Of a stretch of DNA of 64,000 bases, positions 31,149 through 35,998 are shown piece after piece (position 1 is the first letter of the stretch; every line of letters begins with the position of its first letter). The translations under genes and the position numbers were made by a program. The DNA comes from a virus, in the IMG/VR virus record IMGVR_UViG_3300036781_000813, positions 1 through 64,000 of that record; one strand, given 5' to 3'. The notes beneath the pieces were generated by a model. It had not been told where the DNA came from and searched no databases. It saw only the letters and a program-made list of their open reading frames with translations.

Positions 31149-32093
31149 CTACAGGCGATCGAGCAGCGGGACGTCGAACATGCGGTCGAGCAGACCGCGC
31201 GACGGGGTGAACTTCGGTTTGGCGTCGGCAACGGCGACGGCGGGGCCCTGCCTGCCCTCTTCGACCAGCGCCACATGGTTGAAGGCGATGTTCGTCATGA
31301 GCCCGTCGTACTTCTCGCCGTTCCATTCTCCGGCGGTCATGACCGGGTCGTAGCGATAGCTCGGCGACAACTCGCGCTTGGTGTCGGCGTCGATGCCCTT
31401 GATCGATTCGGCGTCCCAGACGACCAGCGAGTTCCACAAACGGCTGCCGTCGAACGCGGCATCGGTGCCGGTGCTGCCGGCCACGTTCTGCTTCTGCGGG
31501 TTCTCGGCATCCACGCCGATATGCTCGTCGAGCAGCTGAATATTGTTGGCGCTCGGCGCCGCCTTCTCGATCTCTTCGGGCGGCCGAAACATCTGGTAGA
31601 TGCGGCCCGGCTCCAGGCCCAACTCTTCCCAGCCCGGGATTTCCTCGCCCAAGTAGGGATTGACAGCCGCCATACAGATCGGCGTCTTGGCGACATGGAG
31701 GCGGCCGTCCTGATCGATGGTGCGGTTGCTCTGAAAGTCGACGGCGAAGCGGTACTTGCCGAGGGCGCGGTCTCGAGCGAGGCCGGCGTGCTCCTTGGTC
31801 TTGAAGGGGCCGATGGCGCGGTCGGCGGCTAGAGCCATCCAGCCGTCCGAGGCCTGCACGACGGAGTGTTCAGGCTCAGCCATCTCCTCGGCGATGAACC
31901 TCAGCACGCCCATCCAGTCACCGGGCGTCATGTCCTTGGCGGCGGCTGCGTGCTCCGGCGCCCAGTCTTTCGCGTCCTTGCCCGCGGTGTGATAGGCGAT
32001 CGCGGCGGCCTGCTTGGGGTCCCGCCCCTCGCCGACCAGCTTCTTGATGTTGGCGCTGATGACTTCGGACGACGCGCCCTTCTCAAGCGGCAT
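31149..32093 (-). CDS. DUF2213 protein, putative prohead protease
   Basis: 314 residues. The N-terminus IKKLVGEGRDPKQAAAIAYHTAG is a short helical motif common in such proteins. The DUF2213 core includes RTIDQDGRLHVAKTPICMAAVNPYLG, NEL-like LLDEHIGVDAENPQK and FDGSRLWNSLVVWDAESI, with the C-terminal FNHVALVEEGRQGPAVAVAD. DUF2213 proteins are regarded as capsid maturation proteases. Confidence 0.82.
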   Translation of the reverse strand: MPLEKGASSEVISANIKKLVGEGRDPKQAAAIAYHTAGKDAKDWAPEHAAAAKDMTPGDWMGVLRFIAEEMAEPEHSVVQASDGWMALAADRAIGPFKTKEHAGLARDRALGKYRFAVDFQSNRTIDQDGRLHVAKTPICMAAVNPYLGEEIPGWEELGLEPGRIYQMFRPPEEIEKAAPSANNIQLLDEHIGVDAENPQKQNVAGSTGTDAAFDGSRLWNSLVVWDAESIKGIDADTKRELSPSYRYDPVMTAGEWNGEKYDGLMTNIAFNHVALVEEGRQGPAVAVADAKPKFTPSRGLLDRMFDVPLLDRL

Positions 32094-32265
32094 CGTGGTG
32101 GTCTTCCTCGTGCCGCTCCTCGACCGGCTGCTCGACCGTCACGGGCTCGGGTGCCGGCGTCGGCGCTGGCTCCTCATCGGGCTGTGGCGTCGCCTTGGGC
32201 GGCTTGCGGTGGAACGGAACGACCGGCATCGGCTGGCCTCCTGTGCCGCTAGCAGCGCCCGGCAA
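32083..32265 (-). CDS. Short Pro/Glu-rich protein
   Basis: 60 residues, mostly P, E, V and T (PPKATPQPDEEPAPTPAPEP) ending in an acidic/His stretch. The 3' end overlaps the DUF2213 start. Probably a flexible linker-type protein; it could also be an extended N-terminus made by re-initiation. The function is unknown. Confidence 0.4.
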   Translation of the reverse strand: MPGAASGTGGQPMPVVPFHRKPPKATPQPDEEPAPTPAPEPVTVEQPVEERHEEDHHDAA

Positions 32266-32452
32266 CCTCCAGTGAGGTCATGGTGCGCAAGGCATCGCGA
32301 ATAGTGTTGCGGTTGACGAAGCGCTTCGGGCAGTCACAGCCGCTTGCGGCGTCTGCCAATTCAATGTCGCTGAGATGCAGCGAGCGGGCCTTGGCGAAGA
32401 ACACTCGGCCATCCGAGAGTTGGATCGACACGATCAGTTCCGCGTCGTCCAT
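32249..32452 (-). CDS. Hypothetical protein, 67 aa
   Basis: Starts at a TGATG overlap with the stop of the head morphogenesis gene. It contains VSIQLSDGRVFFAKARSLHLSD and a CDCPK cluster. No family is recognised; it is translated together with the intein-bearing gene. Confidence 0.5.
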   Translation of the reverse strand: MDDAELIVSIQLSDGRVFFAKARSLHLSDIELADAASGCDCPKRFVNRNTIRDALRTMTSLEVAGRC

Positions 32453-34350
32453 CAGACGAAGCCCTCGATTATCGAGCGCGCCGTGCAGCGGCAGTTTTTG
32501 CTGACAAATCCTTGTGTCGTTGTACTATACCACCCGACATTACTTTGGAGGGTATAGACGTGGCCGCTCGTATTTTTACTGATGAGTTTCTTGCCCACGC
32601 GAACGGCCTGAAAGACAAATTCACCAGCCTCAAAGACCTTGCCGCCCATCTCGAAGTTGACGCGGGCGAGTTGAGCAAGAACCTCCGCACTAAGGGCTAT
32701 CCCGTCCCTAACGGTCGGATCGGCGCTACCCATCGGCGCATCAACATCGACCTTGACCAGATCGTCGCCCTGCACTGTGCCGGGAATCCCGTCGCCAGCG
32801 TCGCGAAGACATTCGGCGTCTCGCCCACCGTGATCTTTCGTATCATGCGAGGCGGCGGAATTACGCCGCGCAAGGATTTCTACGATTTCACGGACGCGGA
32901 GATCGTCCGGATGTTCAACGAGGGCTACAGCGTTCTTTCCATCGCCGAGCACTTCAAGGTCTCTCGAAACGTTGTCGCCCATCGGCTGAAGCGCAACGGC
33001 ATCACGCCGCGAGGCGCCAGTGCGGCCAACCATCTGCGCTTCGAGCGCACCAGCGGGACCGAGCTTCGGGGTTTGACCGAGGCCGCTCGTCGCAAGCGGA
33101 TCGCCAACCTGCGAGACAATGGAACTGACTACGACGCTCCCGCGATTGGTCTCGGCGAGGTCGAATTTCGAGACGCACTCGTCGCTGCCAGCATTGAGTT
33201 CACGGAGCAGTCGGAACTCGGCCCCTACGCTCTCGACTTCCGAGTCAGGAATGTCGCCGTGGAAGTTAAATACAGCGCCAACCTGACCGCTGGTTACACC
33301 GCGTGGGGACAGCCGGCTGAGCGCGCCGAATATATCCGCAAAGCTAAACTTGGTCTGATTACGATCCTGCATTCCGGCGTCGAGTTTCTTAAGCCGGCTC
33401 TGCCATATGTAGTCGCCCTCGTTGATCGCTTGAGCCGCGACCCATCCTTTCGGAGTCAAGAGCGGATGATTAGGTGTCGCTCGTACAGTGGCCTCTCCCG
33501 CTTCAAGGGCAATAAGGTCGCCCCGGTAGTGGTAACGCCAGACTTTATGGCAACCATTCACGAGATCGACTAGCACATCACCCGGGAAGCAGTTCGGCAG
33601 GGTGCCGGGCCAGATGCGTTGACCGACATCGGGGTCAAGCCAGCCCTCGACGATGTTGTACCGGGTCTTGTCGCGACCGGCCTTCAGATGGCTGGTCCTT
33701 GGATGTTTTCCCCCGCCTGAGTGCTGCCAAACCGCCTCGGTGATACCGAGAGACATCTGGCGACCGCGATTCAACATGGCCGAGGCCTTGTGATTCTGAT
33801 CTCGCGCAATGAACGCCGCTCGCCGCCGCGTCACCCCGTAGGTCTGTTCCAGTTCCTTTGCCAGCGCGCCGACATCGTGGCCGGCGCTGACACTGCGCAT
33901 GACGCTGCCTTCCACGTCCTTGAAATACTGCTCCGGGATCGACCGGATCAGGCTGACATTCTCCTGAATGGCCGCCTGGATGAGATCGCGTTGGGCCGCG
34001 GTCATCTTGAAGTCGATGGAGAAGCCGGCCTTCTTGAGGATGGCCTTCAGTTGCTCATCAGTCCGGGCCGATGCCGCCTTGGCGAAGTAGTCGGCCAGCG
34101 ACTGGGCGCCTTCATCGAACTTGGCTTCCCACTGCTTGCGGAGCTCGCGGACCACCTTGGAGATCGTGACCGCCGGGGCTTCGTCTTCAGCCATAAGCTT
34201 CGTTACAGCGGGCTCGTTCGCTCGGTAGGCCGCCAGCACCCATTTCCGGACGGAGCGGTGCATGGCCTCTACAAGCCTGTGCAAACGCTTCTGGTAGATC
34301 ACCCGGAGGCCCGCGTTTGCGTTCAGCGGGGGAAGGATGACCTCAGGCAT
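32452..34350 (-). CDS. Mu F-like head morphogenesis protein carrying an intein
   Basis: The open frame runs to 34389. ATG 34350 (PEVILPPLNANAGLRVIY) is preferred because it overlaps the portal stop by a few bases. The N-extein (to residue PGTLPN) has the helical Mu F/SPP1 gp7 fold (VTRRRAAFIARDQNHKASAML) and the typical IWPGTLPN motif. The C-extein is only CRCTARSIIEGFV. Between them is a 366-residue intein (33591-32494). Splicing would restore the conserved PNCRC motif and give about 266 residues (279 from the upstream start). The protein helps portal and capsid assembly and may be packaged. Confidence 0.9.
   Translation of the reverse strand: MPEVILPPLNANAGLRVIYQKRLHRLVEAMHRSVRKWVLAAYRANEPAVTKLMAEDEAPAVTISKVVRELRKQWEAKFDEGAQSLADYFAKAASARTDEQLKAILKKAGFSIDFKMTAAQRDLIQAAIQENVSLIRSIPEQYFKDVEGSVMRSVSAGHDVGALAKELEQTYGVTRRRAAFIARDQNHKASAMLNRGRQMSLGITEAVWQHSGGGKHPRTSHLKAGRDKTRYNIVEGWLDPDVGQRIWPGTLPNCFPGDVLVDLVNGCHKVWRYHYRGDLIALEAGEATVRATPNHPLLTPKGWVAAQAINEGDYIWQSRLKKLDAGMQDRNQTKFSFADIFGALSRLSPRGVTSGQVGAVFNFHGDIPDSEVESVGAEFRLLRELNAGSDECVSKFDLAETNRGSVVVSSIVSQVGDPLATSGLGQTPKLGPAGALEAQMVGRTGASRRDAVALQPMGDNVSRDLEVLGDGKNAVALVEHPDDLRVREIVEILARRNSAASHDTKDHGGRDAECLRDAGDGIPGTVQGDDLVKVDVDAPMGSADPTVRDGIALSAEVLAQLARVNFEMGGKVFEAGEFVFQAVRVGKKLISKNTSGHVYTLQSNVGWYSTTTQGFVSKNCRCTARSIIEGFV
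32501..32551 (+). promoter_or_regulatory. Possible promoter and ribosome binding site of the antisense endonuclease
   Basis: CTGACA (32501-32506), 16 bases, TACTAT (32523-32528) is a plausible promoter. A strong GGAGG (32547-32551) lies 8 bases before the GTG start at 32560. All of this lies inside the coding sequence for intein blocks F and G on the other strand. The ribosome binding site is clear; the promoter is a weaker call. Confidence 0.55.
32560..33573 (+). CDS. Homing-type endonuclease, HTH repeats plus PD-(D/E)XK core
   Basis: 337 residues from GTG 32560, set by GGAGG 8 bases upstream; a frame-consistent ATG does not exist nearby. Three helix-turn-helix-like segments follow in series: TSLKDLAAHLEVDAGELSKN, NPVASVAKTFGVSPTVIFRI and YSVLSIAEHFKVSRNVVAHR, the last two followed by GITPR. 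The nuclease core is at about residues 200-240: E in GEVEFRDAL, D in YALDFRV, and E-x-K in AVEVKYS. This resembles the Vsr/DUF559-like PD-(D/E)XK enzymes seen among phage homing endonucleases. The gene lies entirely inside the intein DNA, on the opposite strand. Its product should cut intein-free alleles and spread the element. Confidence 0.82.
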   Translation: MAARIFTDEFLAHANGLKDKFTSLKDLAAHLEVDAGELSKNLRTKGYPVPNGRIGATHRRINIDLDQIVALHCAGNPVASVAKTFGVSPTVIFRIMRGGGITPRKDFYDFTDAEIVRMFNEGYSVLSIAEHFKVSRNVVAHRLKRNGITPRGASAANHLRFERTSGTELRGLTEAARRKRIANLRDNGTDYDAPAIGLGEVEFRDALVAASIEFTEQSELGPYALDFRVRNVAVEVKYSANLTAGYTAWGQPAERAEYIRKAKLGLITILHSGVEFLKPALPYVVALVDRLSRDPSFRSQERMIRCRSYSGLSRFKGNKVAPVVVTPDFMATIHEID

Positions 34351-35998
34351 CGAAGCTGCGGGGGGCGCGGGCTCGAGTGCTGCGGCCACGGTCCGGTCGA
34401 CTGTCGCGGTCTCGTTCGCCTTCGGGCCGGCCCTCGCGCTCGCCGCCTTCCTCGCGGCGCAGGTTCGGGAAGGTCCGGCTCATCGCGGGGTCGACCAGGT
34501 CTTCTTCCCCAAGGCCGTCGTCCTCGTCCGCCAGATCGAGGCCGTCGTAGGGGCTGTCGGGGTCACTCGCCAGGCGTCGGCGGTCATCTTCGGGAGTGAT
34601 GACGCCGGACTGGATGTAAACCGCCGAGGTATCGGCCTTCGTCTTCTGCAGGTCCGCCAGTTCCTTCGCCGACAGCGCCTTGAGCGGCTTGAACTCCCAC
34701 ACGATGTCGGGGTCGACGACACCCCACAGCGAGATCATCGCGAAGCAGGCGACCGAGTTGAGATGCTTCGTGAACAGCTTGGCCTGGCTGGCGCGGACCC
34801 ACTCGTACCAGGTCTGCATCTCGAACTCCGACGTCGCGTTCAGGCCTGACGGCGAGATGCCGGTCAGCTTCACGAGAGGCACGTGGGATACGGCTGACTG
34901 GTGCTCTTGAGCCTGCGCCTGCAGATGATCGAGGCTGGCCAGCGGGGCGGCGATATTGGCGAAATCCTCGCCGTCCTTGTCGATCATGAGGACGCCGTTG
35001 TTGTTGAGCAGCTGGCTCATCAGCGCGGCGCGCTTCAACATCTTCTGGCCGCCCTCGGTGGTCGAGGCGTCCATGCTGGTCTTCAGCACGTTGACGCTGA
35101 ACTTGTACATGATGTCGGCGACGGTCTTGCGCGCCCGGAGCCAGTTGTCGACGGTGGGCTTCACCATCTGGCTCATCGGCAGGCCGCCGTACATGTAGGC
35201 CGGCTTCAGCATGTCGGGCACTTCACGTCCGACGAAGGTCAGCAGACGGGTGACGTGCACTTCCTTGCCGAGCACGTACCAGCTTTGCGGGTTGTACCAG
35301 TCCGGCTTCAGGGGATCGTTCGAGGTGTACTGCGCCGGGTAGGACCAGAGTGGTTCGATAGGCCGTAGCGCCTTCAGGAAGCCCTTCTTGTCCTTTGCCT
35401 TCGCGTCGGTCGTGGCATCGCGCCCGTTGCCGATGCTGGTCTTGAGTTCGTCCGGCGCGTCGGTATCGCCTGTGTCGAGGTAGAGATGCGAGCGGCCGAA
35501 GTAGAGATCGAGCTCGGCAACGCGGCGGAAAACACCCTGCACGTCGAGCCGCTTGAACTCCTCGGTCAGTTCCTTGATGCGCTCGGCCTTCGATGCCTTG
35601 TCGGTCGAGGTCGATTTGAACTCGATCCATTCCCGCGTCATCTCCGTCGCGGTGACTTCGGCGATCGCACGATATTCCGCGATCTGCGCCAGTTCCGAGA
35701 GGTACGGGAAGCCGAGGAAGACGATGCCGTTCAGTAGCGCGGCGTTCTGCAGTTGGCCGACCGCCCAGCCGTTCATCTGCTGGAGGTTGCTGTCCATCGC
35801 CAGTGTGGCCTTGCCCTCGGGCACGACACCGGGCGGGGGCTTGGGGAGCGACCCCGGCGCGAACGGCGACCAGTTCGGATCGGCGAGACGCTTGCTCAGA
35901 TCTTGTGCGGCGACCGCTGCCAGCACGGCATCGGAAACGCCGCGCGCCTGCTGAGCCGCCCTCTTCGGCGCCTTCAACTGCGCCGGCTTCTTCGCCAT
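34343..35998 (-). CDS. Portal protein (DUF1073)
   Basis: 551 residues. DUF1073 blocks: MNGWAVGQLQNAALLNGIVF, ATEMTREWIEFKS, LYFGRSHLYLDTGD, YMYGGLPMSQMVKPTVDNWL and KLTGISPSGLNATSEFEMQTW, the last being the typical portal clip/wing region. The final 70 residues are acidic/basic low complexity (EEGGEREGRPEGERDRDSR). Databases sometimes label this family Acb1-like; position after terminase and sequence of the core indicate a portal. Confidence 0.88.
   Translation of the reverse strand: MAKKPAQLKAPKRAAQQARGVSDAVLAAVAAQDLSKRLADPNWSPFAPGSLPKPPPGVVPEGKATLAMDSNLQQMNGWAVGQLQNAALLNGIVFLGFPYLSELAQIAEYRAIAEVTATEMTREWIEFKSTSTDKASKAERIKELTEEFKRLDVQGVFRRVAELDLYFGRSHLYLDTGDTDAPDELKTSIGNGRDATTDAKAKDKKGFLKALRPIEPLWSYPAQYTSNDPLKPDWYNPQSWYVLGKEVHVTRLLTFVGREVPDMLKPAYMYGGLPMSQMVKPTVDNWLRARKTVADIMYKFSVNVLKTSMDASTTEGGQKMLKRAALMSQLLNNNGVLMIDKDGEDFANIAAPLASLDHLQAQAQEHQSAVSHVPLVKLTGISPSGLNATSEFEMQTWYEWVRASQAKLFTKHLNSVACFAMISLWGVVDPDIVWEFKPLKALSAKELADLQKTKADTSAVYIQSGVITPEDDRRRLASDPDSPYDGLDLADEDDGLGEEDLVDPAMSRTFPNLRREEGGEREGRPEGERDRDSRPDRGRSTRARAPRSFDA

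Follow-up and report, generated by a model that had tools for sequence, protein, structure and literature searches.

A class-1-type intein in a phage minor head protein gene with a putative homing endonuclease encoded antisense to it

The stretch of DNA analyzed here, hereafter the window, comprises 64,000 nt and corresponds to positions 1 to 64,000 of a 66,094-base virus record. On its minus strand, a single continuous ORF at 32452..34389 encodes the 645-aa precursor of a MuF/SPP1-gp7-like minor head protein with an in-frame intein. The head protein matched PF04233 at residues 158-235 (Pfam, 5.6e-6) and gave a PHROG head morphogenesis match (4.8e-67), the portal gene adjoins it upstream, and its alignment to intein-less relatives reaches the insertion point (residues 22-267). 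Between the N-extein (33592-34389) and the C-extein (32452-32493), both on the minus strand, the 366-aa intein (32494..33591, minus strand) is inserted at PN|CRC. Four intein blocks were placed in this minus-strand frame: block A (CFPGDVLVDLVNG) at 33553..33591, which contains CFPG and provides the C1 nucleophile; block B with TPNH at 33445..33486; block F (GHVYTLQ...) at 32521..32568; and block G at 32494..32517, which has the end SKN|C, with N366 as the last intein residue followed by C+1. Residues C1, T39, H42, and N366 were invariant in the alignment of intein relatives (47 sequences).

As in class 1 inteins, position 1 was Cys in the window; of 134 loci scored, 124 had Cys there, and edge-truncated or mis-bounded loci were among the exceptions. 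The terminal Asn followed by Cys, Ser, or Thr at +1 took the form N366|C in the window and N|C in 120 of 124 loci. Where the class has a penultimate His, the window has Lys (Lys-Asn), with His or Ser in many relatives; given that the penultimate residue varies among inteins, Lys-Asn was not taken as excluding class 1 membership. The window intein matched PF14890 (Intein_splicing) at 8.4e-6, below the Pfam curated cut-off, and 40 of 47 intein relatives matched this family at E<=1e-3. An AlphaFold2 model built with the 47 relatives had a confident Hint domain at both ends of the intein (approximately residues 1-70 and 327-366, mostly with pLDDT over 90), moderate confidence around the motif FHGD, and largely disordered residues 130-300. 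The folded ends matched the Mtu RecA and Pho RadA inteins in Foldseek (probability 0.99-1.00, E 0.009-0.02). By these sequence features and models, the insert is a class-1-type intein predicted to splice. Three other architectures were not supported: a group I intron, with no Rfam match at E<=1 in 32000-34500; a split intein or fractured gene, as the intein lies in one continuous ORF; and an intein with an in-frame endonuclease, as the interior was largely disordered, a family search of the intein frame found no nuclease family match there, and the nuclease lies on the other strand.

Opposite the intein, the plus strand holds a 337-aa ORF with a GTG start (32560..33573, stop included), which begins 66 bp inside one intein end and stops 18 bp inside the other. 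The two frames are in exact antisense codon register, with codon position 2 on codon position 2. A preliminary description of this DNA, made from the sequence alone, had reported this arrangement: a minus-strand frame open through blocks A, B, F, and G, opposed by a plus-strand frame with a ribosome binding site, three HTH-like segments, and a PD-(D/E)XK core. Its coordinates, frames, motifs, distances, and register all proved correct, and the protein-level features were recovered by Pfam, AlphaFold2, and Foldseek.

The plus-strand protein matched HTH_38 (7e-10) and HTH_7 (2e-9) in Pfam, and its AlphaFold2 model (pLDDT 85) comprised three HTH domains, each tri-helical, with a nuclease fold towards the C terminus. 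HTH domain 1 (residues 8-44; 32581..32691) was placed by the model, domain 2 (residues 65-98; 32752..32853) by HTH_7 and the model, and domain 3 (residues 112-145; 32893..32994) by HTH_38, HTH_23, and the model. The nuclease domain (residues 200-309; 33157..33486, plus strand), with E200, D226, E235, and K237, was delimited by Foldseek, invariant residues, and PF18741/PF04480 matches in relatives. Its closest relevant solved structures were NGO0050 (3hrl; Foldseek probability 1.00, TM 0.70) and the homing endonuclease I-Bth0305I (3r3p; probability 0.98, TM 0.57-0.61), with E-values that were weak (0.045-0.08) despite these probabilities and TM values normalised to the target domain; phmmer found no match to the nuclease in PDB. 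In an alignment of 50 nuclease sequences, Y223, D226, and E235 were invariant and E200 was conserved in over 90%. The D...(D/E)xK active site is present in the window protein, K237 often being another residue in relatives, while of the residues that name the EDxHD group, E and D are present and the alignment leaves the His and Asp equivalents unplaced. Curated family matches among the 50 relatives were MTES_1575 in eight, DUF559 in two, and NUMOD1 in one. As modeled, the plus-strand protein is a predicted PD-(D/E)XK nuclease with a Vsr/I-Bth0305I-like fold. A BcepSauron match (L016) was discarded as a relative, being a GIY-YIG enzyme with HTH repeats alone in common. Nuclease relatives differed in the number of N-terminal HTH domains matched (e.g., L063, L034, and L090). 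The inteins range from about 265 to 366 aa in length, apparently in step with this number, so that intein size appears to be set by the opposite-strand protein.

The start signals of the nuclease gene lie within the end of the intein gene. In the window, a Shine-Dalgarno sequence, GGAGGG, occupies 32547..32552 on the plus strand, and the reverse complement of block F provides both this element and the start codon. Upstream, a candidate promoter, CTGACA-16-TACTAT (32501..32528, plus strand), agrees at 9 of 12 positions, a weak match from a scan that expects 0.5 by chance. Across the family, the block F Leu was encoded by CTC in 62 of 80 cases (compared to 23% in exteins), giving GAG on the nuclease strand, and the block F His by CAT in 65 of 80, giving ATG. 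With P values that are indicative, since independence between related loci is incomplete and A+T content is higher in blocks F-G than in the exteins, Shine-Dalgarno strength in the family exceeded that of synonymous shuffles (P = 5e-10), and sigma-70-like promoters on the strand facing blocks F-G and the first part of the C-extein scored 8.23 matches versus 7.12 in synonymous shuffles (P = 1e-10), the excess being absent in the N-extein and small in the A-B region (P = 0.02). The family −10 box stood at exactly −34 in 14 loci. Perfect TTGACA and TATAAT hexamers were present in four loci. Block F codons spell the Shine-Dalgarno and start codon of the nuclease, and many block G regions hold a predicted sigma-70-like promoter.

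Codon-level tests addressed the suggestion of the preliminary description that each strand constrains the other. Opposite the nuclease, the antisense-stop codons TTA, CTA, and TCA occurred 0 times in 33,991 overlapped codons, where 734 would be expected on the basis of the exteins in those ORFs (909 of 50,299 codons). Being limited to the HMM-matched part of the nuclease, this count in part presupposes an open nuclease frame, although the loci were fetched by a 39-bp motif alone. The zero count included phages of 35-45% GC, in which roughly 5-25 such codons were expected per locus. Free of this conditioning, a count over 124 complete inteins found these codons almost confined to the end stretches, with five interior exceptions from two mis-bounded loci and L136. 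The substitution test rested on relatives, given that the window element had no close ones (about 30% identity at best), and used single-base codon differences in 16 close pairs, some of which share a member and are thus not independent. In the head/intein frame, 76% of changes were synonymous in exteins, 61% in blocks A-B, 73% in blocks F-G, and 29% in the interior, versus 14%, 31%, 21%, and 61%, respectively, in the nuclease frame. Synonymy in the head frame at the ends and in the nuclease frame in the interior implies that selection changes strand inside the element. On these sequence comparisons, both frames are conserved under purifying selection, and the intein interior is mostly selected on the nuclease strand. 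The proposal that the same 1098 bp would code for splicing on one strand and homing on the other thus stood with regard to conservation of both frames and needed qualification with regard to the interior, which is mostly nuclease-selected and predicted disordered.

A dual-coding hotspot lay at 33253..33264, where the nuclease active site reads VAVE on the plus strand and the intein reads FHGD on the minus strand. Among 100 family members, the E235 codon was GAA in 94 (background 51%), V234 was GTG in 90 of 93 Val codons (background 21%), and A233 was GCC in 94 of 99 (background 43%). Given that these restricted codons are those that spell F-H-G-D on the intein strand, both strands are selected at this position, and the possibility that FHGD is a pure shadow of the nuclease active site was ruled out by the same restriction. 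Intein residues 84-123 (33223-33342), the FHGD region, were fairly confidently folded with codons selected on the intein strand, and to our knowledge this region matches no standard intein block. One frame broken with the other kept, a pattern that had been named in advance as evidence against the arrangement, was clearly seen once: L136 (5623-6543) has one in-frame nonsense codon in the nuclease and an intact intein frame. By sequence, this nuclease is a decaying homing gene, as homing-gene decay would produce. L155, with a split match, was also considered as a broken nuclease and rejected, as its nuclease frame is in fact intact.

The insertion was also compared with alleles that lack it, and both homologous insertions at the PN|CRC site and precise empty alleles, which the preliminary description had proposed to look for, were found. 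Its other sequence-based checks, namely separate searches with the two proteins, the test of constraint on both frames, and the counts of TTA, CTA, and TCA, likewise favoured its interpretation. Joined exteins shared 97-100% amino-acid identity with intein-less alleles of other Salmonella, Gordonia, and Klebsiella phages, and DNA comparison with empty alleles (88-96% identity) placed the insertion exactly between the Asn and Cys codons. Phages with the element and close relatives with an empty allele include Jerseyvirus sam or LPSE1 and GRNsp50, Gordonia Vivi2 and Jabberwocky, and Klebsiella P12620-1 and SBP. These sequences indicate that the insert is gained and lost, and a homing element would be expected to show such a pattern of presence and absence. 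Divergence around the insertion site, examined in three phage groups, followed no clear co-conversion gradient. In Gordonia Vividuovirus phages (L018 and L019), one and the same MuF site is occupied by two inteins that are clearly different, of 316 and 275 aa, which suggests that one element was replaced by another.

Beyond the single case first described, sequence searches indicate that such layouts form a large class and occupy more than one kind of host gene. Searching with the plus-strand protein (tblastn) recovered 52 phage records, with E down to 7e-20, mostly antisense to head genes and including Klebsiella, Edwardsiella, Vibrio, Haemophilus, and Gordonia phages, and Salmonella Jerseyvirus, E. 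coli Snoke, and Pseudomonas phages were added by further queries. Scans of viral and genome contigs with a single protein (P0002) gave no match, a plasmid search gave an HTH match alone, and an alignment query for the contig scan was too diverse; a 13-residue nuclease motif (YN[LIV]D...VA.E) scanned as degenerate DNA succeeded, matching at least 120 viral contigs. Among the 120 viral contigs listed for the motif, an HMM confirmed the nuclease in 119, and 118 had a register-0 antisense ORF spanning the matched nuclease. In those 118 loci, intein blocks were matched at one end or at both, although L047, which lies at a contig edge, had just one weak match. The motif also retrieved 15 bacterial or prophage contigs, of which 14 had the same layout, two of these lying in one genome. 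Host genes were mostly MuF-like or other minor head proteins; other exteins we take to be uracil-DNA glycosylase (L032, L106, L111, and L134), dCMP deaminase (L014), terminase (L078), and three others. A quick nuclease tree, with weak support at depth, implied nine host-gene changes and placed two free-standing nucleases separately. Free-standing relatives were observed at L009 (455-1345) and L117 (11036-11737), one of them beside an intein-less MuF gene. In Acinetobacter Obolenskvirus phages, the free-standing nuclease adjoins an intein-less MuF gene, uses 12 TTA/CTA/TCA codons, and faces many stops on the opposite strand. The separate tree positions of the free-standing relatives suggest that the nuclease left inteins, or was captured by them, more than once.

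Could one of the two frames be a mere shadow of the other? For the plus-strand ORF, this would mean an antisense frame held open by codon bias and intein conservation and encoding no protein, as might be supposed given that register-0 antisense frames are often open in GC-rich DNA and that the plus frame is unannotated in almost all phage records examined. However, the frame is open even in the 35-45% GC phages, interior changes are synonymous in the nuclease frame at about twice the rate seen in the intein frame, the protein and its relatives have curated HTH, NUMOD1, MTES_1575, and DUF559 matches, its predicted fold is confident, its Shine-Dalgarno and start codon are selected, and a free-standing homologue exists with no intein opposite; we regard this reading as barely credible. 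It is also highly improbable that the intein frame is the shadow, left by a nuclease gene that inserted backwards in the head gene and merely stays open with no splicing. The invariant C1, T39, H42, and N366, the predicted Hint fold, the Intein_splicing matches in most relatives, the predominantly synonymous changes of the end blocks in the intein frame, the FHGD codon restriction, and the position of the insert, which falls precisely at the N|C junction of a conserved head gene whose empty alleles are exact, all argue for an intein, even though the middle of its frame is predicted disordered and evolves as nuclease. The codon-level tests ruled out the shadow reading in both directions.

A different alternative accepts both proteins and takes the antisense one not for a homing enzyme but for intein-borne cargo, either a regulator or a nuclease with a role in defence, consistent with the resemblance of its three HTH domains to DNA-binding regulators. 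We consider this very unlikely, given that the nuclease fold matches a homing endonuclease domain, that a GIY-YIG homing endonuclease has HTH repeats in common with it and NUMOD1 occurs in a relative, and that the element is polymorphic for presence at near-identical flanks and occurs in unrelated host genes. We have high confidence in the reading of a mobile intein whose homing endonuclease would be the product of an independently expressed antisense gene, with splicing, cleavage, and expression as predicted here; the antisense enzyme very probably spreads the intein.

Under this model of a mobile intein, the head-gene mRNA would be translated through the intein into a precursor, from which the Hint domain formed by the ends of the intein frame would excise the intein and join the MuF protein. 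The complementary strand would act as a separate gene with its own ribosome binding site and often a promoter in or near blocks F and G, transcribed from that promoter or by read-through from oppositely oriented genes. Its product would be a Vsr/EDxHD-like PD-(D/E)XK nuclease with one to three HTH domains, which may cut the intein-less PN|CRC allele, after which repair and recombination would copy the whole unit into the cut allele. We see a strong case for a distinct intein class. Its fuller definition, in which separate splicing and homing proteins are encoded face to face, the nuclease promoter and ribosome binding site lie in blocks G and F, and the 12-bp VAVE/FHGD stretch is needed by both proteins, seems probable to us. 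With promoter and ribosome binding site inside blocks G and F, nuclease expression would be uncoupled from the late structural gene.

Related arrangements share parts of this layout. Dassa et al. reportedly described, in 2009, fractured genes with split inteins in which a homing endonuclease lies between the halves; there, as here, a separate Vsr-like nuclease gene is tied to an intein at its site, whereas the present intein is unbroken, and its nuclease gene runs across it and does not separate two halves. Mobile class 1 inteins, such as archaeal VMA inteins, carry an in-frame homing endonuclease domain (PMC8966425). The present elements resemble them in the Hint domain, insertion in conserved host motifs, a nuclease within intein DNA, and empty alleles, but here the nuclease is a separate opposite-strand protein with its own start signals, and the stretch translated between the two Hint halves is mostly filler. 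Nuclear group I introns can likewise harbour a homing gene on the strand opposite to the host gene, as known for I-DsqI (PMC9548176) and Porphyra (PMC2585584); however, the other strand there is a non-coding intron, and here it is an in-frame protein-coding intein. I-Bth0305I (PDB 3r3p), an EDxHD/Vsr-like phage homing endonuclease, has been reviewed as a group I intron enzyme (PMC3943268). Our nuclease shares the catalytic fold and a modular DNA-binding region with such enzymes, but its gene is antisense in an intein, with N-terminal HTH repeats and the nuclease towards the C terminus. Inteins have been recorded in Guernseyvirinae capsid morphogenesis proteins, e.g., in phage Snoke (PMC8425127). 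These are elements of the kind described here and occupy the equivalent position in MuF, but the intein alone was recorded and the antisense gene was missed or annotated in fragments. In the open-licence literature searched, we found no description of an antisense homing gene in an intein, and a subscription paper or preprint could exist.

If this interpretation is correct, a widespread class of mobile inteins has apparently gone unnoticed, since gene-finding programs leave out antisense genes that overlap another gene. It would also be an unusually clean natural case of two unrelated, predicted folded proteins from opposite strands of roughly 1 kb, and its approximately 100 diverged alleles would allow direct tests of models for dual coding on sense and antisense strands. 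The layout bears on how inteins acquire homing genes and may provide a way to express a homing gene that sits within a late structural gene, and the class would be a new supply of inteins and candidate site-specific nucleases. Several elements lie in cultured Salmonella, E. coli, Klebsiella, and Gordonia phages and are open to splicing and homing assays.

In several Salmonella phages (e.g., Jerseyvirus MT677934.1 and MZ560703.1; L008, 2093-4030), intein-bearing head proteins are annotated as 'NAD+--asparagine ADP-ribosyltransferase', and in the Jerseyvirus phage sam, the antisense nuclease gene is annotated only in part, as fragments. The dCMP-deaminase-like gene with an intein in L014 (KX853510.1, 616-1968) is annotated as 'putative head morphogenesis protein', apparently because its intein resembles those of head genes. 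In Edwardsiella and Klebsiella phages (L001, 940-2800; L020, 647-2388), small genes on the nuclease strand lead to the nuclease, which could thus be the last gene of an opposite-strand operon.
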